Source: Elusimicrobiota bacterium (GTDB lineage Bacteria > Elusimicrobiota > Elusimicrobia > UBA1565 > UBA9628). Taken from it: DNA of 64,000 nt. Location of the stretch: positions 1 through 64,000 of the forward strand of contig JAPLKL010000046.1 in the NCBI GenBank assembly GCA_026388095.1, read 5' to 3'. The first letter of the stretch is position 1; each line of letters begins with the position of its first letter. The translations under genes were made by a program, and so were the position numbers. Below the pieces are notes generated by a model. It saw only the letters and a list, made by a program, of their open reading frames with translations. It was not told where the DNA came from and made no database searches. Positions 222 through 30,592 of this stretch are shown here, in pieces.

Positions 222-396
222 TCCGGACACAGTCCTTTCGGTAGCGGGCAACAGTCCGTCCCCGAACTGGCGAGCCGAAGGCGCCATCCTTCGTGCAACC
301 TATCGGATGGGTTCTGCCGCCCCGCTTCGCGGGTCGGTTGCGCCCGGCAGACGGCCGCCGGGCGCTCGCAGAACGGACTTTATCAGCAGCCTGCTA
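222..396 (+). repeat. Interspersed intergenic repeat, copy A
   Basis: About 175 bp that recurs, inverted and with small differences, at 30331-30592. Shared landmarks, in order, are a TCCGGACACAG segment, GTAGCGGGCAACAGTCCGTC, small hairpins of the GCGCCGAAGGCGC type, a GGTTCTGCCGCCCCGCTTCG block, and a tail around GAACGGACTTTATCAGC ending in CTAG. The tail supplies the stop codon of the minus-strand gene that ends at 394. It shows no coding sign. It is best described as a small non-autonomous or REP/BIME-like intergenic element; the family is not one I can name. Confidence 0.75.
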
Positions 397-3300
397 GCCC
401 TTCTTGGCCGCCTTGTGTATGGCTGCGTCCACCTTCAGGCGCGCGGGGTCCGCGCCCTTGACCATGACTGCGACCTCATCGAGCAGCTGATAGGGCTTGG
501 CCTCTTCCCCGCGCAGAGTGATCTCCACCGGCAGCTCCCGGAGCTGGATCACAGTCTCGGCATTGCGCCCCGGCCGCACCATCTTGACATAGCCCGTGAA
601 CTGCCGCCCCTTGTTCTCCGGCTTGGCCAATTCATAGACGGACATGAACTCATCCACCTCGTGGTCCATCTGCCGAGCCGCCTGCTCCCGGCCGTTGAGA
701 TGCTGCAGGTACTCCTCCAGGCTCGCGAAGCCCAGGACCTTCATGTCCGCCAGCATGGCCTCGTAGGCCGCCTTGGGATCCGAGCCTTCCAGGTAGGCCT
801 CGAGCAGAGCCCGGTTGTACATGTCCGAGAACCGCCGGATCGGCGTCGAAGGATGGTCGTAGGCCTTGGCTTCCAGAGCCAGCCCCTCATGGCCCTCGGC
901 GTCGTCGGCCGAGTAGAGGGCCGAGCTGCGGCTGCGCAGGGCCAGGATCTGCGCCGTCTCCTTCACCTCGGCGGAGAGGTCCTGGCGCTGGCGCAGGCCG
1001 GCCAGATACTGCCATAAAGTCTCGTTCTCCGGCCACGGGACCCCGATGGAGGAGAGTTCCTTGCGCAGGCGCTCGTTGACCCGCTCCTCCTGGGCCGGAT
1101 GGATGCGGCTGATGTGCGGCACGCCGGCGTCCTTGGCGATGGCCTCCAGGCGCACGGCGATGGCCCGGTTCCCATAGACCTTGAGCTCTTCGATGAGCCG
1201 GTGCGACTCCTGCGATGAGCCGGTGCGACTCCTGCACCTGCGGATCGTGCTCGACTACGAACGTGCCCCAGCGGCCGTCGGGCCCCTTGCGATGCTCGGT
1301 CTCGGTGAAGCTCAGCTCCAGCTTGCCCCGGGCCTCGTCGGTGCGGTGCAGCTTGGCGGAGAGCTCCCGGGCCAAGGCCACCTGGTCGAAATGGATGATG
1401 CCGTGCCCCGCCTGCCCCTTCCAGAGCGCGCCCACTTGGTCGTAGGTGTAGCGGCCCTGCACGCGCACCAGGCCCAAAAACACTTCGGACTCTCCGAGCA
1501 GGAACTCGCCGGAGGCGCTGAAGCGCATCTTGGACACCATGGCCAAGGAGTCCTTGCCCGCCAGCAGGCTCGACACGGACTTGGACACCACCGGATGGTT
1601 CATGGGGAATTCCGAGACCCCGTCCTTGTCCACCGAGTAGAAGGTGTTGCCGATGCGGGCCGCGGCGCGGAAGGCCGGGGTGCCGGGCTTGACGTACTGG
1701 GCCACGTCGGCCGTGGCCAGATACCAGGTGTAGCTGCCGTCGGCCTCCTTGGTCACGTAGTAGGCGTCGTCGAGGTCGCCCGCGCCGACCGGGTCTATGG
1801 TGATGAAGGGCAGCTTGCGCAGGTCCTCGCTGCGGCCCTTGGCCGCCTGCATGCGCTTGAAATCAGCCTCCGGGTCCTGCTCCCGGCCCACTGCCTCGGC
1901 CTGCCGGATGACCGGCTCCTCGAAGTAGCCCCGCGCGCCGTGGCGCAGGGCGATCTCGCGCGCGGCGATCTCGGGGGTGAGCTGTGAGCCTAGGTCCAGG
2001 AGCGGCACGGCTTCATAGCCCGCGGCAGCGGGCTTCACGAAGACCTGCAGGATGGCGCCTTCTTTGGCGGCGCCCGATATGGGCATGGGAGCGTAGAGGG
2101 ATTTTGCCGAGTCGCCGGAGAAGAGCGGGGCCAGCATCAGGTTCTCACCCACGCGGCTGACCCGGCCGATGATCACGTCGGCCGCGTAGGCCCCGACAGG
2201 CTTGATGCCGCGCACGCCCTTCTCGTCGAAAGCCACGTCCACCACCGTCTCGTTCACCACTCCCTGAGCCAGCCGGTCGGGCACGCGCACCGCCTTCTGC
2301 ACCTCCATGCCTTCCGCGTTCAGGGTTGGGAGCATCACGTAGGCGCGGTCGAAGCGGCGCAGGAGCATGGCGCGGGTCTTTTGGATGTTCGCGTCTTCCG
2401 GCAGCTCGGCCGCCACGCGCTGAGCGCCCGCCTCCTCAAGGCCTGCGGGCAGGGCCTTGGCGCCTTGGGCGTAGAGATAGGCGTCGCCGCGCTCGGCCGG
2501 TTTGGGGCCGTTGGTGGTGAAGCGCTCCAGCATCTCCAAGGTGAGCTTTCCCGGGGCGGAGGGATCCGCCGCGGCCTGGGTCTTCGCGCCCGGATAAGCC
2601 GCGGCGACCACTTCGACGCCGGTGGTCTTCTTGAAGAACTCCAAGGCGGCCTTGGCGAAATCCTCGCGCGACATGCCCCGCAGGGACAAGCCCACCGCAT
2701 AGGCTCCCTTCTCGTCCGGCCGGGCCGAGACCTCGGGCCGGCCCAGGCCGAGCCTGCGCGAGAGCCGTTGGGCCACGCGCGAGACCGCGTCCGCCGCCTG
2801 TGCGCTGTTGCGGGCGCGCAGGTAGAGCCAGGCGTCGACTTGGCGGAGCTGGGGGGACGGCGCGGCCTCGGCGATCTTGAGGGAGGGCTCGGCTCTGAGC
2901 AGCGCTTCGCGCAAGGACTTCTCGGCCGCGGCGGCGTCCGCGCCGGGAGCCAGCTGCAAAGTGACCTGATAGGCGTTGGTCCCTTCCGCGCGCTGCCAGG
3001 AGACCGCGGTCTTGTCCACGCGCAGGCCTTTGGCCGTCAGGCGCTTGACCGCCTCCGCGACCAGGCTGCGGGCCTTCCATTGGCGCAGGGCGGTCGTGAA
3101 GCGCAGGCTGACAGCCGGAGCCGAAGGCGCGTCTATGACGGCCAGGACCGCTTCCTGGGGCTTGGTGAAGACGGGGGCCGCGGGCTTCTCTTTCTTGAGC
3201 GCTTCGAGGGCGATGGGCTTTCCTTCCGCCTTGGCCTCGGTGTAGACCTTGGCCGCGTAAGCCAGGCGGTTCCAGGAGCCCTCGCTCATCAGGTCCAGGA

Positions 3301-4558
3301 AGTTCTTCGGCTCCATGAAAGGGTTGTCCACGGTCCAATGCTGGCGCGCCTTCTTGAGACCGCGGGGCTGGCCGCTGGGCTCAGTGCCGGCATCCAGGAC
3401 GCGGGCCATGAGCTTGTCGAAGCCGCCTGTCTGCATGACCATCTGCTCGACGCCGACTCCGCTGGGGCCGCCCTTCCAGGGCTTGTAAGAGCCGATGGCG
3501 GTGGTGAAGAGCCGCTTGGCCAGGCGGATGTCGCGCAGGACCTGCTCAGCGGCCGCGGGCCCGCCCGAGCGGCGCACCGCGGCGAGCTGGGCGTCGAAAT
3601 AGCCGGGATAGTCGTTGGCGTACTCGGAGCGGCGCGTGAAGCTCACGTCCGCGTCTATGAGCAGGCCCGCGGGGCCGCTGACGTGCACCGGGATCATGTA
3701 AACGCCCTCGGCGTGCTTGCCGTCGGCCGGGTCGTTGAGCGCCACCGGGCCTTCCACCTTCACCGTGGTCTCCACGCCCGGGAACAGGAAAGCGGTCTCG
3801 CGCTTGACGCTCTCGGCCAAGGCGGCCTTGAGGGCGGGCAGGTTCGACTTGACCGCCGCGTCAGCCTGCTCGTCGCTCCAGTCCCGCGGCAGGCGGGCCA
3901 TGAGGTCGTAGTCCGGATTGTCCTCGCTGTGGGTCAGGCGCGCGGAAGAGCCCCGCGAGCGGACATCGATCAGCGCGCCTTTGAAGACCGAGCCCGCGGC
4001 CATGGCCACGGCTTTTTCGAGCGCGGAGCTGGTGGCGCTGACGCGGGCGAGCTCGGCGGGTGTGAAATCGATGCCTGAGACCTGGAGTATGCCTTGGTCC
4101 GAGGTTCCAGCGGCCTTCTCTCCGGTGAGCTGCTGGAACTGCTTCTCGGCGCTGTCGCGGCCGCCGTCAGCTCCGGGCTTGGCCAGGGCCTTGCCGATTT
4201 CGGCGACGTTGTCCGTGAGAGCCTGGACCTTCTGGCTGAAGACCGGCTGTTCCGGAGCGGCCATGGGGATCGGGGCGGCGAGCAGGCTCGGGGGCAATGC
4301 CGCAGGAGCGGCGAGCACTTTTGGGACCAGGGAGAGCTTGGGAGAGGCCTGCAGAGAGGGGGCCCGCAGCGAGAGGGAGGGCAAGGAGAGCGCCTGCGGC
4401 GGGCCGGACTGGACGAGCACCGCGGGTCCGGTCTGGACCGGGGCCGCGACCACGACGGAGCGGGTCTGCGCGGCGAAAGCGGGAGAGAGGGGGCTGGAAG
4501 CGAGCAGGACGGCCAGGAATGTACGCAACGCGCGCATGCGATAGTGTAGATGCCGCAT
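394..4558 (-). pseudogene. Exported nucleotidyltransferase-RNase II/R fusion, frameshifted
   Basis: The gene reads in one frame from 4558 to about 1214 and in another from about 1213 to 394. A perfect 22-bp tandem duplication (1192-1235) lies at the junction; removing one unit gives exactly 1381 codons (1380 aa). Order of parts: signal peptide (about 1-30), Ala/Pro-rich leader (31-105), helical stretch, then a nucleotidyltransferase-like domain with GS at 203-204, D-Y-D at 216-218, a further acidic strand at 302-304, and a helical block at 340-388 (RDIRLAKRLF...GFDKLM) like class I CCA-adding enzymes. A cold-shock-like segment precedes an RNB core from about residue 912 (TIDPVGAGDLDDA); an S1-like tail follows. 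The RNB family degrades RNA 3' to 5', here predicted outside the cytoplasm. A start at 4558 has AAGGA upstream; 4537 gives a tighter signal peptide. It may be a true pseudogene or an assembly error. Confidence 0.72.
1192..1235. repeat. Perfect 22-bp tandem duplication
   Basis: Units 1192-1213 and 1214-1235 are identical (GATGAGCCGGTG... to ...ACTCCTGC). Because 22 is not a multiple of three, the second unit shifts the reading frame of the RNase-like gene inside its catalytic domain. The protein sequence on the two sides (QESHRLI before, VYGNRAIAVRLEA after) joins into a normal RNB-domain stretch once one unit is removed. Confidence 0.93.
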
Positions 4559-4966: not shown

Positions 4967-5003
4967 AATGTCCAATGTCAAGACCTGACCCCCGAGGGTC
5001 AGG
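4967..5003 (+). repeat. Solo RAYT-type terminal repeat with hairpin
   Basis: 4967-4993 is identical over 27 bp to the right end (58559-58585) and, inverted, to the left end (57523-57549) of the RAYT element. Here no transposase is attached. Bases 4984-4991 (CCTGACCC) pair perfectly with 4996-5003 (GGGTCAGG) around a 4-nt loop, and the hairpin overlaps the stop codon (4999-5001) of the MATE gene. It may act as a 3'-end stabiliser or bidirectional terminator between the convergent lipoprotein and MATE genes. Confidence 0.85.
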
Positions 5004-6387
5004 CCGCTTCTTCCATCTGCGGCGGGACCGGCAGCGGCTCCTGCAGGGCGGGCGGCAAGGGCACCACGACCTTGGATCTCCAGCGGCCCGTGGCATAATA
5101 CCCGGCGGAGAGGGCCAATCCCACCGCCCAGGCGATGGGCACGCCCCACCAGATCCCATCGGTCCCGATGCGGCCCGCGAGCCAGGTCGAGATCGGGATG
5201 CGGATCAGCCACAAGGACAGGATGGTGATGAACATCGGTATCAGCGTGTCTCCGGCTCCGCGCAGGACTCCCGTGAGCACGAACATGCTCGAGAAGACCA
5301 CGTAGAAGCCGCCCACGATCAAGAGGTAGCGGGCCCCGATGGCCACCACGTTCGGGTCCGCGTTGAAGAGGGCGATCAAGGGCTTGCCGAACAAGATCAC
5401 CAGTACCGTGGTGGCCGCCGAGAACGCCCCCGAGATGAGCAGGGCCGCCCTCAAGCCGTGCTTGACCCGGCCCAGCTTGCCCGCCCCCAGGTTCTGGCCC
5501 GTGAACGTGGACACCGCCGCGGACAGGTTCATGGCCGGCAGCACCGCGAAAGCGTCGAGGCGGCCCGCGGCCGTGTAAGCCGCGATCGCGTCCGTGCCGA
5601 AGGCGTTGACGATGCGCGCCAGCGCCATCATCCCCGTGGCCACCAGGACCTGCTGCACACCCGTGGGCAGGCCGATGGCCAGGCCCTTCTTGAAGATGTC
5701 CCAGTCGAAGGCCAGCCCCTTCCACCTCGGCCTGACCACCGTGTGGGAGCGGTTCAAGTGCGCCACGCCCAGCACGCAGGCCACCGCCTGCGCGAGCACC
5801 GTGGCCCAGGCCGAGCCCGCGACGCCCCAGTGGCAGACCAGGACGAAGAGCATGACCAGGATGATGTTGAGCACCGTGGAGACGATCATGAAATAGAGCG
5901 GGGTCTTGGAGTCGCCCAGGCCGCGCAGGATGCCGCTGATGGTGGCGAAGCCGAAGAGGAAGAGCATGCCCGCGAACAGGATCTGCAGGTACACCGTGGC
6001 CTGATCCAGCAGTTCGACGGGAGTCCTGAGCATCATGAGCGCGGGCCGGGAGAGCCGGATGCCGACGGCCGCTATGACCAGCGAAGCGAAGAACACGAAC
6101 ACCAAGGACGTGTCCACGGCGCGCTGGACCTTCTGCATCTGCTTGGCGCCGTAGTACTGGGAGATGAGGATGGAGAAGCCCATGGTCACCCCGATGCTCA
6201 GAGCGATGAGCAGGAACAGGATGGGGAAGCTCGCGCCCACGGCCGCCAGGGCGGACTTGCCGATGGCCTGGCCCACGATCACGCTGTCGACGACGCTGTA
6301 GGACTGCTGGAACACGTTGCCGATGAGCATGGGCACCGCGAAGTTCAGGATGAGCCTGCCTTCGGGTCCGGTGGTGAGGTCCTTCAT
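4999..6387 (-). CDS. MATE family multidrug/Na+ antiporter
   Basis: 462 aa, the usual MATE length, with about 12 hydrophobic segments arranged as two homologous halves. The N-terminus (LILNFAVPMLIGNVFQQSYS, VDSVIVGQAIG) and QYYGAKQM after the second segment are typical of the DinF/NorM-like branch. Members sit in the inner membrane and export cationic drugs or metabolites in exchange for Na+ or H+. The substrate cannot be told from sequence. The start at 6387 faces the helicase gene on the other strand across 38 bp. Its stop lies inside the hairpin of a solo RAYT repeat. The C-terminus is short and acidic. Confidence 0.92.
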   Translation of the reverse strand: MKDLTTGPEGRLILNFAVPMLIGNVFQQSYSVVDSVIVGQAIGKSALAAVGASFPILFLLIALSIGVTMGFSILISQYYGAKQMQKVQRAVDTSLVFVFFASLVIAAVGIRLSRPALMMLRTPVELLDQATVYLQILFAGMLFLFGFATISGILRGLGDSKTPLYFMIVSTVLNIILVMLFVLVCHWGVAGSAWATVLAQAVACVLGVAHLNRSHTVVRPRWKGLAFDWDIFKKGLAIGLPTGVQQVLVATGMMALARIVNAFGTDAIAAYTAAGRLDAFAVLPAMNLSAAVSTFTGQNLGAGKLGRVKHGLRAALLISGAFSAATTVLVILFGKPLIALFNADPNVVAIGARYLLIVGGFYVVFSSMFVLTGVLRGAGDTLIPMFITILSLWLIRIPISTWLAGRIGTDGIWWGVPIAWAVGLALSAGYYATGRWRSKVVVPLPPALQEPLPVPPQMEEAA

Positions 6388-6425: not shown

Positions 6426-9400
6426 GTGCCCACCATGGACCAGGCGGACCGCGACGCCGCGCGCAGCCGCCTCGACTGCAACGTCGTGGTCGTGGCCGGC
6501 GCGGGCACCGGCAAGACCACCTTGCTGACCGACCGGATCCTCTTCAACCTCCTGGGCCGGCAGCTCCCTCTGCCCATCACCGCGCTGGTGGCTCTGACCT
6601 TCACCGAGAAAGCCGCGGGCGAGATCCGGCTGCGTTTGGCCGAGAGGCTCCTTGAGCTGGTGACGCTGCTCGGCCGGGGGTCCCTGGGCGAGCAGGCCCG
6701 CGCCCGCGCCGAGGCCGTCCTCAAGGAACTGCGCTCCCGGTTCGGCAGGAAGGACGAAGAGGTCCTGAAGCGCGCGCGCGCGGCCCTGGAGGACCTCGAC
6801 AAGGCCCAGATCGGGACCATCCACGCCTTCGCCGCGCATCTGCTGCGGCTCTATCCCCTGCAGGCCGGGGTGGACCCCGGCTTCCGGGTCGACGAAGGCC
6901 CGGGCTTCGAGGAGCTCTTCGAGACCCGCTGGTCCCAGTGGCTCGACGCTGAGCTGGGCGAGCAAGCCCGCGGCCCGAGGAAGCAGGAATGGCTCGCGGT
7001 GCTGCGCTGGGCGCCCCTGGAGGACCTCGAGGAGCTCGCGCGCGGGCTGGCCGGCGCGCCCGTGGACCTCGCGCAGATCGGCCGGCCGGACCCCGAGGCG
7101 CCGGCCCGCTTGGCGGAGCTGGAGCGCCTGCTGCGCCAGGCGCCGCAGGGCCAGCCTCCGGCGCGCGGCAAGATCCTGGAGGCGCTCTCCGGCTTGGCCG
7201 AGCACCTCGACGCTCTGGCCGCGGCCGCGTCCAGCGCGGAGCCGCCTTTGGCCCGGCTGCGGGCGGCGAAGCCGCCGCAAGCCAAGTGGCCCGCCGGCTG
7301 GGATGAGGCCTGCGCGCCGGCCTATGAGAGCGCTCAGCGCATCGCGGCCGCGGCCTCGGCGGAGAGCGAGGCCCTGGCGCGCCGCGCCGCCCGTCTGCTC
7401 ATCCCCTTCGCCGATGCCTTCCGCCAAGCCTACGCGCGCGCGGGCCTGGTCTCCTTCGACGGCCTCCTGCTCAAGGCCCGGGACCTGGTCCGCGACGACC
7501 TCGTCGTGCGCGAGGAGCTCAAGGCCAAGTACCAGGCCTTCTTGGTCGACGAGTTCCAGGACACGGACCCTCTGCAGGGAGAACTGCTGCTGTTCTTGGC
7601 GGAGGAGCTCGGCGGCCGGGCCCGACGCTGGGGCCGGGTGCGGCCCGGAGCGGGACGCCTCTTCATCGTCGGAGACCCCAAGCAGTCCATCTACCGCTTC
7701 CGGGGCGCGGACATCGCGGCCTATCAGGGCATCACGGAGCACCTGCTCCAGGGCGGCGGGGCGCTGCTCTGCGAGCTGCGGACCAATTTTCGCAGCACGG
7801 CCGGAGTCCTGGCCCCGGTCAACGCGGTCTTCCCCAAGCTCATGCGGCGCAAGGAAGGCTCCCAGCCCGACTACATCCCCGTGGCGCCCCTGGCCGAGGC
7901 TTCGGATCCTTTGCCTGCTGTCGAGATCGTGGCGGTGGGGCCTGCGGGCGAAGGGGGCGAGGAGCCCGACGCTTTGACCGGGCAGAAGACGCAGGCCGCC
8001 TGGATCGCGGGCTGGATAGCGGCGGAATGCGCCGGCGGCGGGAAGCGCCGGTTCAAGGACGTGGCCGTGCTCATGCGCACCTCGAGCGCCTTGGCCCCGC
8101 TCCTGGAGGCCTTCAAGGCCGCGGACATCCCTTATGTCGTCGAGATGGAGAAGCTCTTCTACAACAGCCAGGAGGTCATCGACCTGTCGAACCTCCTGCG
8201 CGTCCTGGACGACCCCGAGGACCGGCTGGCCTTCGCGGGCCTGCTGCGCTCGCCGCTCATGGGCCTGGCCGATGAGGACCTCCGTCTCTGGGCCGCGGCC
8301 GGCCAGCCGGGCTACCTGGAGAAGCCGCCGGCGTCCTGGCCCGCCTCCGAGAAGCGGCGTCTGGCCGGGCTCTTCGCCATCCTGCGCGGCCTGCGCGGCC
8401 GGGTGGGCCGCGTCCCCCTGGGAGAGTTCGTCTGCGCCGTGCTCGACGAGACGCCCCTGCTCGCGGCCGCGGCCCGGGCCTACCACGGCCAGCAGAGCGT
8501 CTCCAACCTGCTCAAGTTCTCCCGCCTGGCGGCCGCGGCCGCCGACGAGCGGGGCCTGACCCTGAAGGAGTTCATCGCCGTGGTGGCCCGGGCCATGGAC
8601 GAGTCCCGGGCCGAGGGGGAGAGCCCCTTGGCCGACGAGCACCTCGACGCGGTGCGCGTGCTCTCCATCCACAAGGCCAAGGGCCTGGAGTTCCCGGCGG
8701 TGCTGGTCTACAACCTGTCCGGCGGCAGCGCCCGCGGGGGCGGCGGCCAAGCCGTGCTGACCGACTGGAGCACGGGCCGCGCCGGGCTGAGCCTGGCGCG
8801 CTGCGGGGCTGGCGACGCGGTCCGGGCGCTGCTGGAGGACCGGGAGCGCCAGCGCCGGGAAGACGAGACCGTGCGCCTGCTCTACGTGGCGCTCACGCGC
8901 GCCAAGGACAAGCTCATCCTGCTGGGCCACCGGAAAGCGGACCAAGGCACCTTGGCCCGGCTCTTGCGCGATGCCGGGGCTTGGCCGGCATCGGAAGCCG
9001 AGACGGTTTTGTCCCTGCCGGTGCATGTCCTGAGGGCCGGCGCGGGCGCGATGCGTTCCGGCCAGGCGCGCCTCTCGGGGCTGCGCTGCGCGCATCGCCT
9101 GCCCGAGCCCAAGGCCTTGGCGCGGCTGCGGGCCGAGAGGCTGCGGCGGCGCGATGCGGCCGCGGCGCGCGGCTGGACCCGGACTGCGACCGAGTACTTG
9201 AAAGAGGGCGGCCCGGACCTCGGCCGCCAAGCCCGCCCCGCCGGCCCCGGCTTGGGCCCCTTGGTGGGGCAGCTCTGCCACAAGGTCCTGGCCCTCTGGG
9301 ATTTCCGCAGGCCGGCCGACCTCGGAGCGGCCCTGGCCACGGCGTGCCGCGCCCTGGCTGGAGCTCAGCCCGAGGCCGATTGGGCCGCCGCGCGCGGCGA

Positions 9401-9725
9401 GGCCGAGGCGGTCCTGCGGATATTCCTGGGCTCCCGGGCCGCCCGGGAGCTGGCCGAAGCCGAGATCCTGGGGCGGGAACTGCCCTTCGTCTACGGCGAG
9501 GCGGGTGCCGTGGTGCGGGGGACCATCGACCTGGTCTACCGCCAGGGCGGGCGCGTGGTGGTGGCTGATTTCAAGAGCGAGGCGGCGGCCCCGCGGAGCC
9601 TGGGCGCCCTGCGCGAGAGGTACCGGCGCCAGGGCGAGGACTATCGCGCGGCGGTGGAGCGGGCCTGGGGGCTGGCGGACGTCGAGTTCCGCCTCATCTT
9701 CTTGAGGAGCCCGGATCTGGCCTGA
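6426..9725 (+). CDS. UvrD/AddA-type helicase with C-terminal nuclease
   Basis: 1099 aa. Superfamily 1A helicase motifs are in order: Walker A AGAGTGKTT (24-32), motif Ia ALTFTEKAAGE, motif II FLVDEFQDTD, motif III GDPKQSIYRFRGAD, motif IV LRTNFRS, motif V SIHKAKGLEFP, motif VI LLYVALTRAKD. A PDDEXK nuclease follows at the C-terminus (IDLVYRQGGRVVVADFKSE, about 1035-1053). This is the AddA/RecB plan: ATP-driven unwinding plus end resection in double-strand break repair. No AddB-type partner is seen in the window, so it may act alone or with a partner elsewhere. The GTG start at 6426 is preferred because a -10 box lies 6 nt upstream; ATG 6435 is the alternative. Confidence 0.9.
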   Translation: MPTMDQADRDAARSRLDCNVVVVAGAGTGKTTLLTDRILFNLLGRQLPLPITALVALTFTEKAAGEIRLRLAERLLELVTLLGRGSLGEQARARAEAVLKELRSRFGRKDEEVLKRARAALEDLDKAQIGTIHAFAAHLLRLYPLQAGVDPGFRVDEGPGFEELFETRWSQWLDAELGEQARGPRKQEWLAVLRWAPLEDLEELARGLAGAPVDLAQIGRPDPEAPARLAELERLLRQAPQGQPPARGKILEALSGLAEHLDALAAAASSAEPPLARLRAAKPPQAKWPAGWDEACAPAYESAQRIAAAASAESEALARRAARLLIPFADAFRQAYARAGLVSFDGLLLKARDLVRDDLVVREELKAKYQAFLVDEFQDTDPLQGELLLFLAEELGGRARRWGRVRPGAGRLFIVGDPKQSIYRFRGADIAAYQGITEHLLQGGGALLCELRTNFRSTAGVLAPVNAVFPKLMRRKEGSQPDYIPVAPLAEASDPLPAVEIVAVGPAGEGGEEPDALTGQKTQAAWIAGWIAAECAGGGKRRFKDVAVLMRTSSALAPLLEAFKAADIPYVVEMEKLFYNSQEVIDLSNLLRVLDDPEDRLAFAGLLRSPLMGLADEDLRLWAAAGQPGYLEKPPASWPASEKRRLAGLFAILRGLRGRVGRVPLGEFVCAVLDETPLLAAAARAYHGQQSVSNLLKFSRLAAAAADERGLTLKEFIAVVARAMDESRAEGESPLADEHLDAVRVLSIHKAKGLEFPAVLVYNLSGGSARGGGGQAVLTDWSTGRAGLSLARCGAGDAVRALLEDRERQRREDETVRLLYVALTRAKDKLILLGHRKADQGTLARLLRDAGAWPASEAETVLSLPVHVLRAGAGAMRSGQARLSGLRCAHRLPEPKALARLRAERLRRRDAAAARGWTRTATEYLKEGGPDLGRQARPAGPGLGPLVGQLCHKVLALWDFRRPADLGAALATACRALAGAQPEADWAAARGEAEAVLRIFLGSRAARELAEAEILGRELPFVYGEAGAVVRGTIDLVYRQGGRVVVADFKSEAAAPRSLGALRERYRRQGEDYRAAVERAWGLADVEFRLIFLRSPDLA

Positions 9726-9734
9726 AGTCCGTCT

Positions 9735-11756
9735 TCAGCCCTGCTTCGAGAGCCGCCAGCGCAGGTACAGGGCGGCCAGCGCGATGGGGATGAGCGCCAA
9801 CGAGAAGTAGTAGAACGGAGTCAGCCCGAGCGGGAAGGCCTTGAAGAGGTACTTCAGCGCCAGGATGCCCACCGTGGTGACCGCCAGCGAGGCGGAGCCG
9901 AGGAAGCCCATGGCGTCGGCCATGTCCTGCTTGGGCACCCGCGCCTGGAAGTAGCTCTGCAGCTTGAACTGGGCCACGACCTGCGCGATGCCGAACGGGA
10001 TGAGGGCCAGGGCCGGCAAGGTCACGTTCTTGGCCCACATGAGGAACGAGGGCAAAGACACCAGCGAGCCGAGGACCGGCAGGGGCACGGCGAGGCTCGC
10101 GATGAAGGCCAGCGAGCCGGCGGCGATGACGATCCAGCGGAGCATGGACTGGCGCAGGATGACGCGCTCGCCCGCGTCGTCGATCTGGCCGGACTCCTTG
10201 GCTTGGTCGAGCTTGCGGCTCTGCAAGGTCATGATGATGCCGCCCACCAGGCCGCCGGCGCTGTAGAGGCCGGTCAGCCAGCCGCTGATGGCCGGCGCGA
10301 GCTCGGGGGCCGCCGTGCCGATGAGCCGCAGGGCGTAGCCTGGAGCGAGCATCTGGTACAGGAAGGGGTTGAGCATGAGGAACAGCGTGAAGGCGATGAA
10401 GCTGAGCCTCAGGGCCGGGTTGCTCCAGACCACCTTGGCGCCGCGGCCGATCTTCTTGAAGAAATCCTTGAATATCTGGATCACGCCGGCGGGCTTCTGG
10501 GACGGGTCCTGGGCCCTCTTGAGCTCCGCCTCGGCCGGCAGCTTCAGGGTCGTCCAGAGGATGAGCGCCGCGGCCAAGGTCATGACCGGGAAGGCGACCA
10601 AGGCGGGGATGAAGCCGAAGTGGGCGATCACCAGGCCGGTCACGATGGGCCCCAGGACGCCGAAGATCTCGGAGAGGGTGTGCTGGACGCCCCAGAAGCG
10701 GTTGAGCGGCGCGTCCTGCTGTCCGACGAGCAGGGGCGGCACGCTGTTCATGGCCGTGAAGGTCGTGCCCATGATGAAGGCATTGGCCGAATAGAAGAGG
10801 AACATGAGCGGCAAGGTCATGTGCCCGGTGGCCAGCAGGGCCACCAAGGCGGTGATGGAGGCCACGCGGATCATGTAGGAGCCGACGTAGGCCTTCTTCA
10901 GCCCGACCTTCTCGATGATGACCGGGGCGATCTGGCGGCCGATGATGCCGAAGATGGAGGAGACGACCGCGACCTGCGCGTAGATGGTGAAGTCCCCGAA
11001 GGCCTTCTGGATGAGGGCCGGCATGGATGAGCCCAGGGCCTCGACACCCACCTGCTGGGCGAGCAGCGAGCCGATGAACCACCAGGTGGTCCCGTTCATC
11101 CCGAAGCCCCAGCCCTTCTTGGGCTTCTCGGGCTTGGCGGGTTCGTCTACGGCCGGCTTGTCCTTCGCGGCCGTCTCGGCGGAGAGCGCGGGCGAGAGCC
11201 CCTGGGCCGTCTGTCCCGGCGCGCCGAGCACGTCGGCGGGCTGGCGGGGCTCGCCGAAGAGCTTGCGCAGTTGGCGGAAGCGGACGCCGAGCTGGTTGGA
11301 CTGCCCCCGGACGGTCTGCAAGGACTCCGCCTCCGCTGCGGCCGCGACGGCGTCCTTCTGCTCCTGCGGGAGCGCGGCCGGAGCCGCCAGCGTCGGCGCA
11401 ACGACCGCCTCTGACTGTGTGATCGGGACGACGGCAGGGTTGACGGAGAGCACCGTTGCGGTCTGCTGAGCGGAGGCAGGGGCGGCGAAAGCCGGCCCCT
11501 GGATGGGAGGCAGGACGCCCTGGATGCCCGCCAGGGCCGGGGTGAGGCCGAGGGACAGTCCGGGGGTCAGGACTGAGAGGGCGCCTTGGCCGGTGCGGTT
11601 CTGGAGGCCCGCGCCGACCACTCCGGCGTTGGCGCCGCCGACCGGGACCGCGACGCTGACCTGGTTTACGACCGCTGCCGCGGCCTGGAACGCGCCGAGG
11701 CCCGGGGCCGTGACCAGCGTGACGATCGCGATGAAGATGCAGAGCCAGCGCTTCAT
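9735..11756 (-). CDS. MFS transporter with exported Ala/Pro-rich leader
   Basis: 673 aa, much longer than a normal 400-450 aa MFS carrier. Residues 1-22 form a signal peptide or first membrane segment (MKRWLCIFIAIVTLVTAPGL). Residues 23-220 are an Ala/Pro/Val-rich leader ending in a charged helical stretch (RFRQLRKLFGEP). About 12 membrane segments follow from residue 225, with an intracellular loop after TM6 carrying ELKRAQDPSQK. The fold is that of major facilitator secondary transporters; the substrate is unknown. The leader resembles those of the RNase-like protein at 394-4558 and the PLD protein at 35952-39032, so it is probably a shared module and not an annotation error. The ATG at 11756 is preceded by a TATAAT box 6 nt upstream. 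Confidence 0.85.
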   Translation of the reverse strand: MKRWLCIFIAIVTLVTAPGLGAFQAAAAVVNQVSVAVPVGGANAGVVGAGLQNRTGQGALSVLTPGLSLGLTPALAGIQGVLPPIQGPAFAAPASAQQTATVLSVNPAVVPITQSEAVVAPTLAAPAALPQEQKDAVAAAAEAESLQTVRGQSNQLGVRFRQLRKLFGEPRQPADVLGAPGQTAQGLSPALSAETAAKDKPAVDEPAKPEKPKKGWGFGMNGTTWWFIGSLLAQQVGVEALGSSMPALIQKAFGDFTIYAQVAVVSSIFGIIGRQIAPVIIEKVGLKKAYVGSYMIRVASITALVALLATGHMTLPLMFLFYSANAFIMGTTFTAMNSVPPLLVGQQDAPLNRFWGVQHTLSEIFGVLGPIVTGLVIAHFGFIPALVAFPVMTLAAALILWTTLKLPAEAELKRAQDPSQKPAGVIQIFKDFFKKIGRGAKVVWSNPALRLSFIAFTLFLMLNPFLYQMLAPGYALRLIGTAAPELAPAISGWLTGLYSAGGLVGGIIMTLQSRKLDQAKESGQIDDAGERVILRQSMLRWIVIAAGSLAFIASLAVPLPVLGSLVSLPSFLMWAKNVTLPALALIPFGIAQVVAQFKLQSYFQARVPKQDMADAMGFLGSASLAVTTVGILALKYLFKAFPLGLTPFYYFSLALIPIALAALYLRWRLSKQG

Positions 11757-11762
11757 ACCTTG

Positions 11763-11768
11763 ATTATA
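11763..11768 (-). promoter_or_regulatory. -10 box (TATAAT) for the MFS gene
   Basis: On the minus strand TATAAT (11768-11763) is followed by 6 nt and the ATG at 11756, predicting a leaderless transcript. There is no convincing -35 element. Confidence 0.6.
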
Positions 11769-11822
11769 GACGAAGGAGGGGCTCCGCGCGCGGGTCTATG
11801 AGGGAAATCCCGCGCGGCCTTA

Positions 11823-11843
11823 GGGCCTACGCCGGATAGGCCC
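11823..11843 (-). terminator. Hairpin after the prepilin gene
   Basis: GGGCCTA (11823-11829) and TAGGCCC (11837-11843) form a perfect 7-bp stem with a 7-nt loop, one base after the stop codon at 11845-11847. There is no U-tract, so a role as terminator or 3' stabiliser is inferred. Confidence 0.45.
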
Positions 11844-11844
11844 C

Positions 11845-12522
11845 TTAGTCGTAGGGGTTGGAGAACGACTTCTGCATCTGGACCCGAGTGTCGACCTTGC
11901 TGAAGGCCGGGGCCTGCCCGTTGGCGGAGCGGGTCTGCTGGCCGATGGTGAAGAGCAGCTGCACGCCGGCGACGTCGTCGGCCCTCCGGAAATAGAAGTC
12001 CAGGGCGGGGTCGTTAGGATAGATGTCCTGGGCCACGACGTCGTAGCTCCCGGAGCCGCAGGCGGGAGCCGGGTCGATGGGACAGCTCGTCCCCGTGTAG
12101 TGGAGGAGCCAGGGGGTCTTGGTGGGGGTGCTGGCCGCGTCCCAGACGGAGTAGTAGGACGACTTCACGCTCAACGCATTGCCGTCCAGGGGGCCGCCCG
12201 CAGGCCCCAGCCCGGCGCCGGGGTTGGGCGTGTAGTCGCTGCAGCCGCTCAGGACGGTCGAGGTCTTTCCCGGGCAGCCGCGGTGGGAGCCGTCCGTGAA
12301 AGGGCAGTACAGGACGGTGCCGTTGGAAAGCTCCTTCTGCATCGAGTCCAGGCCCATCAGGGCCCAGGCGGAGTTCGTGGCTTTGGCCGAGCTCTCCATG
12401 TGCCCGCGCATCATCTGGGAGACGGCGCCGAAGATGCCCATGATCACGAAGCTGCTCAGGACCAAGGCGATGATCATCTCGAGCAGCGTGAACCCGGCCC
12501 GGCGCCGGGGGGCCGTGGTCAT
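11845..12522 (-). CDS. Type IV prepilin-like protein (PilW/PulG type)
   Basis: 225 aa. It begins MTTAPRRRAGFTLLEMIIAL: a short basic leader, the prepilin peptidase site G|FTLLE with Glu at +5, then a hydrophobic helix of about 20 residues. These are defining features of type IV pilins and type II secretion pseudopilins. The mature domain has six or more cysteines (CPF, RGCPGK, GCSDY, SCPIDPAPACG), suggesting disulfides, and its size fits a minor pilin. Its ATG overlaps the stop codon of the upstream SPFH gene (ATGA), so the two should be co-translated. A PilB-type ATPase lies at 32501-34231; no other pilus gene is near. Confidence 0.85.
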   Translation of the reverse strand: MTTAPRRRAGFTLLEMIIALVLSSFVIMGIFGAVSQMMRGHMESSAKATNSAWALMGLDSMQKELSNGTVLYCPFTDGSHRGCPGKTSTVLSGCSDYTPNPGAGLGPAGGPLDGNALSVKSSYYSVWDAASTPTKTPWLLHYTGTSCPIDPAPACGSGSYDVVAQDIYPNDPALDFYFRRADDVAGVQLLFTIGQQTRSANGQAPAFSKVDTRVQMQKSFSNPYD

Positions 12523-13385
12523 TTGCCTTGGTCCAGGTTGAGGATGAGCCCCTGGCTCTGGGGCACCACCATGACCTTGAAGTCCTTCTTCTCCAGCATC
12601 TCGATGGTGCGCAGCTGCAGGTAGCTCTTGGCCGAGGCCAAAGCGTCGTTCTTGATCTTGATGGCCATGGCTTCCTGCCGGGCCTGCGCGACCTCGAACT
12701 CCTTGCGCTGGATGGCCTGCTGGGCCGCGACCTTCTCCTCGATGGAGTGCTGGTAGGAGGGCGTCAGGTGCACGTCGCGCAGGAAGACCCCGTCGCCGTC
12801 GAGCACGAAGAAGGCGTCGTCGTTGAAGGACTTGGCGATGAGCTCCTTGATCCGGTCCTGCACCTCGGTGCGCTTGGGGCCGTAGAGTTCGGGCGCGGTG
12901 TACTTGGCCACGGTGAGGCGCACGGCGTTGCGGATGATGGGGCGGATGACCTGCTCCTCGCACCAATCCTGGTCGCCGAGCTTGACGTAGACCTTGCCGG
13001 CTAAGTCCAGGGGGATGCGGTACCAGACCGTGATGTCGATGCCCACCATGTTGCCGTCGGCGGTCGGCGACCAGTTGGTGTTGGCTCCCTCCTGGCCGGC
13101 GTCGGCGGAGGTCATGGACATGGTGTAGGCCTTGCGGCGGCAGTCGTAGACGATGACGCTGTTGATGATGGGCACGCGCAGCTGCCAGCCTTGCTTCAGA
13201 GTCGTCGGGTTGATCTTGCCGGTGAGCTTGTTGAAGAGCACGCCTTCGTGCCCGGCCGGGATGAAGACCACGGCGGACCAGAGCAGCAAGAGGCCCGCCG
13301 CCACCACCATGGCGCTGATCACGGTCCGCAAGTGCCGGGCGACCATCTCCTGCGGGTCCACGTCGCCTTCCTGCCAATGAGCCAT
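12519..13385 (-). CDS. SPFH/prohibitin-family membrane protein
   Basis: 288 aa. A membrane segment at about 24-45 (VISAMVVAAGLLLLWSAVVF) is followed by a prohibitin-type SPFH domain (IPAGHEGVLFNKLTGKI...QGWQLRVPII) and a helical C-terminal part rich in Ala, Glu and Lys. SPFH proteins build large membrane-attached rings and often bind proteases such as FtsH or organise membrane domains. The start at 13385 has GGAGG six bases upstream; a longer frame to 13469 is less likely. The gene overlaps the prepilin gene by 4 bp (ATGA). The link to a pilin is unusual and suggests a membrane-quality or assembly role, but this is only context. Confidence 0.88.
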   Translation of the reverse strand: MAHWQEGDVDPQEMVARHLRTVISAMVVAAGLLLLWSAVVFIPAGHEGVLFNKLTGKINPTTLKQGWQLRVPIINSVIVYDCRRKAYTMSMTSADAGQEGANTNWSPTADGNMVGIDITVWYRIPLDLAGKVYVKLGDQDWCEEQVIRPIIRNAVRLTVAKYTAPELYGPKRTEVQDRIKELIAKSFNDDAFFVLDGDGVFLRDVHLTPSYQHSIEEKVAAQQAIQRKEFEVAQARQEAMAIKIKNDALASAKSYLQLRTIEMLEKKDFKVMVVPQSQGLILNLDQGK

Positions 13386-30330: not shown

Positions 30331-30592
30331 GCTGGCAGGCCGCTGATAAAGTCCGTTCTGCGAGCGCCCGGCGGCCGACTGCCGGGCGCAACCGACCCGC
30401 GAAGCGGGGCGGCAGAACCCAGCCGATAGGTTGCACGAAGGATGGCGCCTTCGGCGCGACTGGCGAGCCTTCGGCTCCCAGCCGATAGGTTGCACGAAGG
30501 ATGGCGCCTTCGGCGCGACTGGCGAGCCTTCGGCTCGCCAGTTCGGGGACGGACTGTTGCCCGCTACCGAAAGCACTGTGTCCGGACACAGT
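30331..30592 (-). repeat. Interspersed intergenic repeat, copy B
   Basis: The inverse complement of copy A (222-396), longer because its central part is duplicated in tandem. Units 30421-30479 and 30480-30538 are 59 bp each and nearly identical; each holds two small palindromes of the GCGCCGAAGGCGC type. The right end contains a perfect 26-bp palindrome at 30571-30596. No coding content is credible. The whole 438-bp gap between 30229 and 30666 consists of this repeat and partial copies, apart from about 100 bp next to 30229 that hold a promoter. Confidence 0.85.

Follow-up and report, generated by a model that had tools for sequence, protein, structure and literature searches.

The fusion gene and its reading frame

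We analyzed a 64,000-nucleotide stretch of DNA (the window) from an Elusimicrobiota bacterium (assembly GCA_026388095.1, contig JAPLKL010000046.1, positions 1 to 64,000). Near its start lies a minus-strand gene (about 4558-394). The encoded chain begins with a signal peptide and an Ala/Pro leader, followed by a nucleotidyltransferase (NTase), a pair of ferredoxin-like repeats, a pair of cold-shock-like barrels, an RNB domain of the RNase R type, and finally a weak S1 tail. By computation we established this domain anatomy, the polymerase-beta fold of the NTase, the conservation of catalytic residues in both enzymes, and the conservation of the fusion in other genomes. The enzyme families are known ones in a conserved, predicted-exported combination that is apparently undescribed; literature searches for an NTase-RNB fusion returned nothing relevant within a coverage that left most subscription journals outside.

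An earlier annotation made from the letters alone (the sequence-only reading) had described one polypeptide spanning 4558 to 394. In the assembly as given, however, there are two open reading frames (ORFs), a long one at 887-4558 (minus strand, 1,223 aa) and a second at 394-1155 (minus strand, 253 aa) in a different frame. They meet at an exact, frame-breaking 22-bp tandem duplication (1191-1235, minus strand; Tandem Repeats Finder, 2.0 copies, 100% identical), which places the frameshift inside the RNB domain, and the final ~108 residues of the long ORF are an out-of-frame reading past the duplication. The window contains the 22-mer twice; it is absent from every locus retrieved from other genomes. 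Relatives carry both halves in one continuous frame, except for the nearest relative, G001, whose copy has one in-frame TAA within the leader, and G046, which has a frameshift in the fusion gene. We rejected programmed frameshifting because the relatives are in frame and the break is caused by an exact duplication. The duplication could reflect either a fault in the assembly or a true mutation.

The long ORF is 81% identical to the G001 copy. Between the two copies, the ratio of nonsynonymous to synonymous substitution rates (dN/dS) was 0.25 in both the whole leader and the NTase, 0.38 in the middle region, 0.13 in the first part of the RNB domain, and 0.20 in the tail. These values indicate that the gene, both enzyme parts included, has been under purifying selection.

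The nucleotidyltransferase domain

The NTase, a palm with a helical neck, is encoded at 3122-4090 (minus strand). In an alignment of residues 150-486 over 15 homologues (alignment A1), GS 203-204, D216, D218, and the neck segment R-x-A-K-x-x-F (345-351) are invariant. The third acid, D304, is kept in 14 of the 15 (L038 has Q there), and R345, K348, and Y358 mark the neck. The GS and DYD (216-218) signatures, the acidic strand (302-304), and the helical block named in the sequence-only reading were thus all recovered. AlphaFold2, run on the same alignment, gave a confident polymerase-beta NTase fold for residues 150-486 (predicted local distance difference test score 88.8, predicted template modelling score 0.84); a prediction lacking this fold had been named in the sequence-only reading as grounds for refutation. 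A Foldseek search of this model against the PDB gave 48 matches at E <= 0.001; the top match was 1r89, a class I CCA-adding enzyme of archaeal type (E 1.1e-5, TM about 0.48), and others included NF90-NF45, OAS1, terminal uridylyltransferases (TUTases), CutA, cGAS, and CD-NTases. The palm fold, GS, DxD, and third acid place the domain in the polymerase-beta superfamily, and we rejected the idea that the NTase call reflects a chance motif.

The comparison with class I CCA-adding enzymes, also made in the sequence-only reading, was right as to kind of enzyme and failed as to family membership. The TIGR03671 cca_archaeal model matched 9 of the 15 homologues (best E 1.4e-6, window member 0.005) and was the only NCBIfam family with matches from more than one NTase member; CBASS_cyclase_b was matched weakly by one (E 0.072). 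The archaeal enzyme is therefore the best match of the fusion NTase by both fold and profile, and the two share the GS/DxD palm, the third acid, and a helical neck with R-L-x-K. The fusion NTase is nevertheless not a CCA-adding enzyme by membership, since scores are far under the curated cut-off (281 bits, with the best members at about 22 bits) and the parts of the enzyme that follow the neck were not found. Among the matches listed, the cca_archaeal alignment covers only profile positions ~2-85 of 410, within the palm, and no CCA-enzyme structure was among the top Foldseek matches of the post-neck region. Two ferredoxin-like repeats, or nothing in L038, stand where the tRNA-holding body and tail domains of a CCA enzyme would be. 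The fused RNB domain and the predicted export further set the protein apart. A profile search of alignment A1 against PDB sequences had zero matches, and Pfam on single NTases gave only chance-level matches (including PF09249 at E 0.067). Two weak matches to A1 (G047:C5 and G044:C107) were rejected as NTase-only homologues; judged by eye, they are short NTases of the MNT type, preceded by a winged-helix-like stretch. Addition of CCA to tRNA is an unlikely task for the fusion because the same genome holds two class II PolyA_pol-type NTase genes for such ordinary duties (G000:C41:85034-85417 and G000:C7:37383-37745, one of them within an 820-aa frame). An NTase of archaeal type is here found alongside class II enzymes of the bacterial kind.

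The middle region, RNB domain, and tail

Two variable ferredoxin-like (ACT/RRM-type) repeats follow the NTase (2597-3121, minus strand). In Foldseek searches of the AlphaFold2 model their best matches were ACT-type proteins, with an RRM pair also matched; domain coordinates in homologues show that the repeats are absent from L038, the homologue in G005. After these comes a strongly conserved linker, LTLEMLxRFTxxGPxPxERGDAYLYAQGAKALP (2456-2554, minus strand), seen as invariant columns in alignment A3. Two cold-shock-like beta barrels (1994-2383, minus strand) precede the RNB domain as in RNase R/II. They were assigned from predicted beta-only segments, a Foldseek search that weakly matched the structure of a cold-shock domain, and a position that agrees with TIGR02063.

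The RNB domain begins at residue 911, close to the residue of about 912 proposed earlier. Its first part (1289-1828, minus strand) contains D922, D928, D930, and D931, and its second part, in the other frame (787-1218, minus strand; PF00773, E 1.3e-15), contains the PIRRF motif. The four aspartates and PIRRF are kept in the RNB part, and the aspartate cluster is conserved in the family. The spacing of the four aspartates is that of the RNase II active-site aspartates. In the long ORF, Pfam identified RNB alone; the tail ORF matched RNB and, weakly, S1. PF00773 scored above its cut-off, placing the domain in the RNase R/II family, whereas the S1-like C-terminal domain (421-600, minus strand; PF18614, E 6.5e-4), which had also been anticipated, was under its own. 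The curated cut-off of the RNase R equivalog TIGR02063 (598 bits) was not reached by either the long ORF (109 bits, E 1.6e-31) or the tail (51 bits). The protein resembles RNase R and RNase II in its order of two cold-shock domains, RNB, and S1, in the aspartate cluster, and in PIRRF; it differs from them in having an N-terminal NTase and a signal peptide and almost no Cys, and in the separate placement of its RNB domain in the tree described next.

Distribution and ancestry of the fusion

Three overlapping genome sets were searched: 97 relatives, 295 members of the phylum, and 235 of the class. The NTase module turned up in 15 genomes, all from one class, which means that 15 of the 235 class genomes have both NTase and RNB. 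The module was never found without RNB: every copy shares a frame with RNB, the exceptions being G046, G048, and the window, where the gene or its contig is interrupted. The sequence-only reading had suggested searching Elusimicrobiota genomes for the same domain order, which recurs in 14 genomes besides that of the window. It had also named homologues in which the two parts are always separate genes as grounds for refutation; the parts were instead found in one protein, or on fragmentary contigs or in a frame-broken gene. The possibilities that the fusion is unique to the window or was made by joining two genes were considered and rejected. Given the repeated domain order and the low dN/dS, the fusion goes beyond chance.

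In a tree, the RNB domains of the fusion group as a single clade (100/100) at the end of a long branch, away from the canonical RNase R and from the RNB proteins of 494 aa that these genomes encode. The fusion is therefore old and did not arise from the resident RNase R; the same tree led us to reject the idea that the fused RNB is a recent duplicate of that gene. No other RNB gene was detected in several fusion genomes (e.g., G005, G007, and G076). The RNB-only match in G053 is a fragment on a 3.7-kb contig, with its frame open at the contig end, and belongs to the fused-RNB clade. Viral contigs contained no relatives of the fusion, and a scan of genome contigs had the nearest relative as its sole match.

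Evidence for export

The signal peptide that had been read at the N-terminus comprises residues 1-29 (4472-4558, minus strand), namely MRALRTFLAVLLASSPLSPAFA followed by AQ, with a predicted cut after AFA. An alternative start, Met8, lies at 4537. Homologues with the N-terminus present have the same layout, with basic residues first, then a hydrophobic core, and in most cases an A-x-A site; L039 and L043 are borderline. These features of a Sec-type N-terminal signal were identified by a heuristic score and homologue comparison, not SignalP. The Ala/Pro-rich low-complexity leader, which had likewise been noted, lies at 4253-4471 (minus strand) and is followed by the leader motif F..KVQ.L...V.E.GK....ADGGR..A..QF..LTGE (4109-4252, minus strand; alignment A2, E 1.7e-22). 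Three more proteins in this genome clearly carry the motif, and a fourth, weak carrier has membrane helices and a P-loop kinase-like domain. Among the carriers within the order (e.g., L027, L029, L030, L068, L069, and L019-L022) are many transporters of the MFS type, an Endonuclease I, and a conserved family of uncharacterized proteins. In G005, the Endonuclease I gene with the same leader adjoins the fusion gene (L038) divergently (7197-9182, minus strand, and 9244-12627, plus strand). Signal peptide, Ala/Pro spacer, and a motif of the LTGE type together make up an N-terminal unit of otherwise unrelated proteins, perhaps a module for sorting or maturation that is specific to this lineage. Because carriers include transporters and a secreted-type nuclease, the leader favors real export.

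Cysteine content points the same way. The window protein has no Cys in 1,361 residues, and 13 family rows have 5 Cys in about 15,700 residues, a count that omits 9 Cys of the stop-to-stop reading of L034, mostly upstream of the real start or in the signal peptide. In contrast, 15 non-fusion RNB proteins in these genomes have 61 Cys in 9,294 residues (0.66%); an alternative total of 9,940 residues includes the cysteine-free fusion-type fragment L113. The contrast has a Fisher p of about 6e-20, which is only indicative for related rows. Signal peptides, Cys depletion, and the shared leader together strongly suggest that the fusion protein is exported from the cytoplasm, and so lend good, if indirect, support to the export claimed in the sequence-only reading.

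A possible tail-and-trim enzyme and its alternatives

We favor, at somewhat less than an even chance, a lineage-specific exported RNA-degrading enzyme that acts by tail-and-trim, like TUT-DIS3L2 or RET1-DSS1 in one chain. The signal peptide would take the chain across the inner membrane, where the NTase domain could extend structured RNAs or RNA fragments at their 3' ends. The added tail would serve as a single-stranded end on which the RNB exonuclease of the same chain loads, while the RNA is held by the cold-shock-like and S1-like domains and perhaps also by the ferredoxin-like ones. Digestion from 3' to 5' would then free nucleotides for scavenging or clear foreign RNA. Nucleoside triphosphates (NTPs) could come from lysed neighbors, or the need for them could be met by action inside another cell. 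This reading draws on the conserved NTase fold with its GS, DxD, third acid, and neck R/K/Y, on the conserved RNB aspartate cluster, and on the purifying selection on both enzymes. It is further favored by the same domain order in 15 genomes, the NTase never occurring without RNB, and the single old clade of fused RNB domains, as well as by the signal peptides, near-absent Cys, and the leader in common with Endonuclease I and MFS-type transporters.

The union of nucleotide addition and removal, presented in the sequence-only reading as one of opposite reactions, was overstated as an oddity, because eukaryotes are known to pair tailing by an NTase with degradation by an RNB enzyme. In mammals, tailing by TUT4/7 is followed by 3'-5' degradation of structured RNA by the RNB-family DIS3L2 (PMC5069555). 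The mitochondria of trypanosomes contain a complex that includes both the TUTase RET1 and the exonuclease DSS1 (PMC6329795). The fusion, in which we infer the tailing, would resemble the first pair in this sequence of steps and the second in the physical joining of an NTase with a 3'-5' exonuclease. Unlike the separate cytoplasmic proteins of mammals and the subunits of the mitochondrial complex, however, it is a single bacterial chain, predicted to be exported. If tail-and-trim is true, it would be a single-chain bacterial version of a tail-then-degrade partnership known from separate eukaryotic proteins. If the protein is exported and active, it raises the prospect of NTP-dependent RNA chemistry outside the cytoplasm of uncultured bacteria, and the question of where the nucleotides originate.

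Several points weigh against tail-and-trim. The main difficulty is that we know of no NTP supply outside the cytoplasm. In one family member, L038, the third acid is replaced by Q, and the window copy and that of its nearest relative, G001, each have a lesion. The case for export is built from sequence features only. Moreover, predicted exported proteins in these genomes are only mildly Cys-poor (0.80% vs. 1.05%), so Cys depletion supports export but does not prove it.

The same apparent lack of external NTPs would suit an exported nutrient-scavenging RNase whose NTase no longer adds nucleotides and only binds RNA or nucleotides, leaving the exonuclease to act alone. NF90-NF45, whose NTase-like domains are non-catalytic, is among the best fold matches, L038 has lost the third acid, and the Endonuclease I neighbor in G005 shares the leader. 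We consider this a credible but fairly unlikely alternative: binding would not require the metal-binding acids, yet GS, D216, and D218 are invariant, D304 persists in 14 of 15 members, the neck R/K/Y are kept, and dN/dS is 0.25 across the NTase. The NTP requirement would be satisfied differently if the leader gave no export, or if the secreted chain acted inside another cell, with RNA tailed and degraded in the NTP-containing cytoplasm of the bacterium itself or of a neighbor. A predatory or host-associated life has been proposed for lineages with giant proteins (PMC12057145, PMC11573180). The signal peptides and Cys depletion disfavor the bacterium's own cytoplasm, and for a neighbor's, no delivery system or receptor-binding part was identified and gene neighborhoods are not conserved; we judge this scenario distinctly improbable.

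Another possibility is that the NTase makes a nucleotide signal in the manner of OAS or CD-NTases, or modifies a non-RNA target, with RNB as a partner in defense or signaling. OAS, cGAS, and CD-NTase structures were also matched, as was CBASS_cyclase_b by one member. Sequence models nevertheless favor cca_archaeal (9 of 15), PADLOC gave no match to its defense models, no conserved neighbors that could serve as CD-NTase/CBASS effectors were found around the homologues, and export does not fit, all of which leaves such a role very improbable. Finally, the window gene may be a decaying pseudogene whose function is past in its genus, as the 22-bp duplication and the in-frame TAA of G001 would suggest. 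This would touch only this copy and not the family. Given the low dN/dS between the two copies, the open frames in most other genomes, and the coverage of 2.57 shown in the title of the G001 contig (cov_2.57), we find decay unlikely.

The module in giant proteins

In two relatives within the class, the NTase-RNB module lies mid-frame in giant open frames of 5,865 aa in G070 (L041/L042, G070:C1) and at least 7,856 aa in G076 (L044/L045, G076:C90). Both frames also match adenosine deaminase, phosphoglycerate mutase, and, weakly, HAD hydrolase; that of G076 additionally has a glucosamine-6-phosphate isomerase/6-phosphogluconolactonase domain and a second NTase. The G070 frame opens with what looks like a signal peptide, the G076 contig does not include the beginning of its frame, and each frame has just 8 Cys. 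These features suggest exported or surface multi-enzyme proteins. Elusimicrobiota are known to have many huge proteins (PMC11573180), and the two frames are alike in kind to the giants of Elusimicrobiota and Omnitrophota. As far as the consulted parts of the reports extend, however, the published giants are uncharacterized or tied to recognition, carbohydrate degradation, or cell-wall degradation, with no mention of an RNA-enzyme module (PMC12057145, PMC11573180). The module gives recognizable enzymatic content to two otherwise poorly understood Elusimicrobiota giants. A broader formulation would be template-independent RNA tailing outside the cytoplasm, in cis with an RNB exonuclease and fed by external or delivered NTPs, by one of a class of exported, sometimes giant, proteins with normally cytoplasmic enzymes; we regard it as doubtful.

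Neighboring genes and repeats

No conserved neighbors were found around the homologues, and a conserved operon context was considered and rejected on this basis. By eye, the neighboring genes in the window resemble a MATE-type transporter (4999-6387, minus strand) and a UvrD/RecB-type helicase-nuclease (6426-9725, plus strand); such genes were not noticed around the homologues. A dispersed repeat, CCGATAGGTTGCACGAAGGATGGCGCC, has 23 copies in the genome. One lies at 280-306 of the window, just downstream of the fusion gene near the contig end, and two tandem copies are located at 30.4 kb (30423-30449 and 30482-30508).

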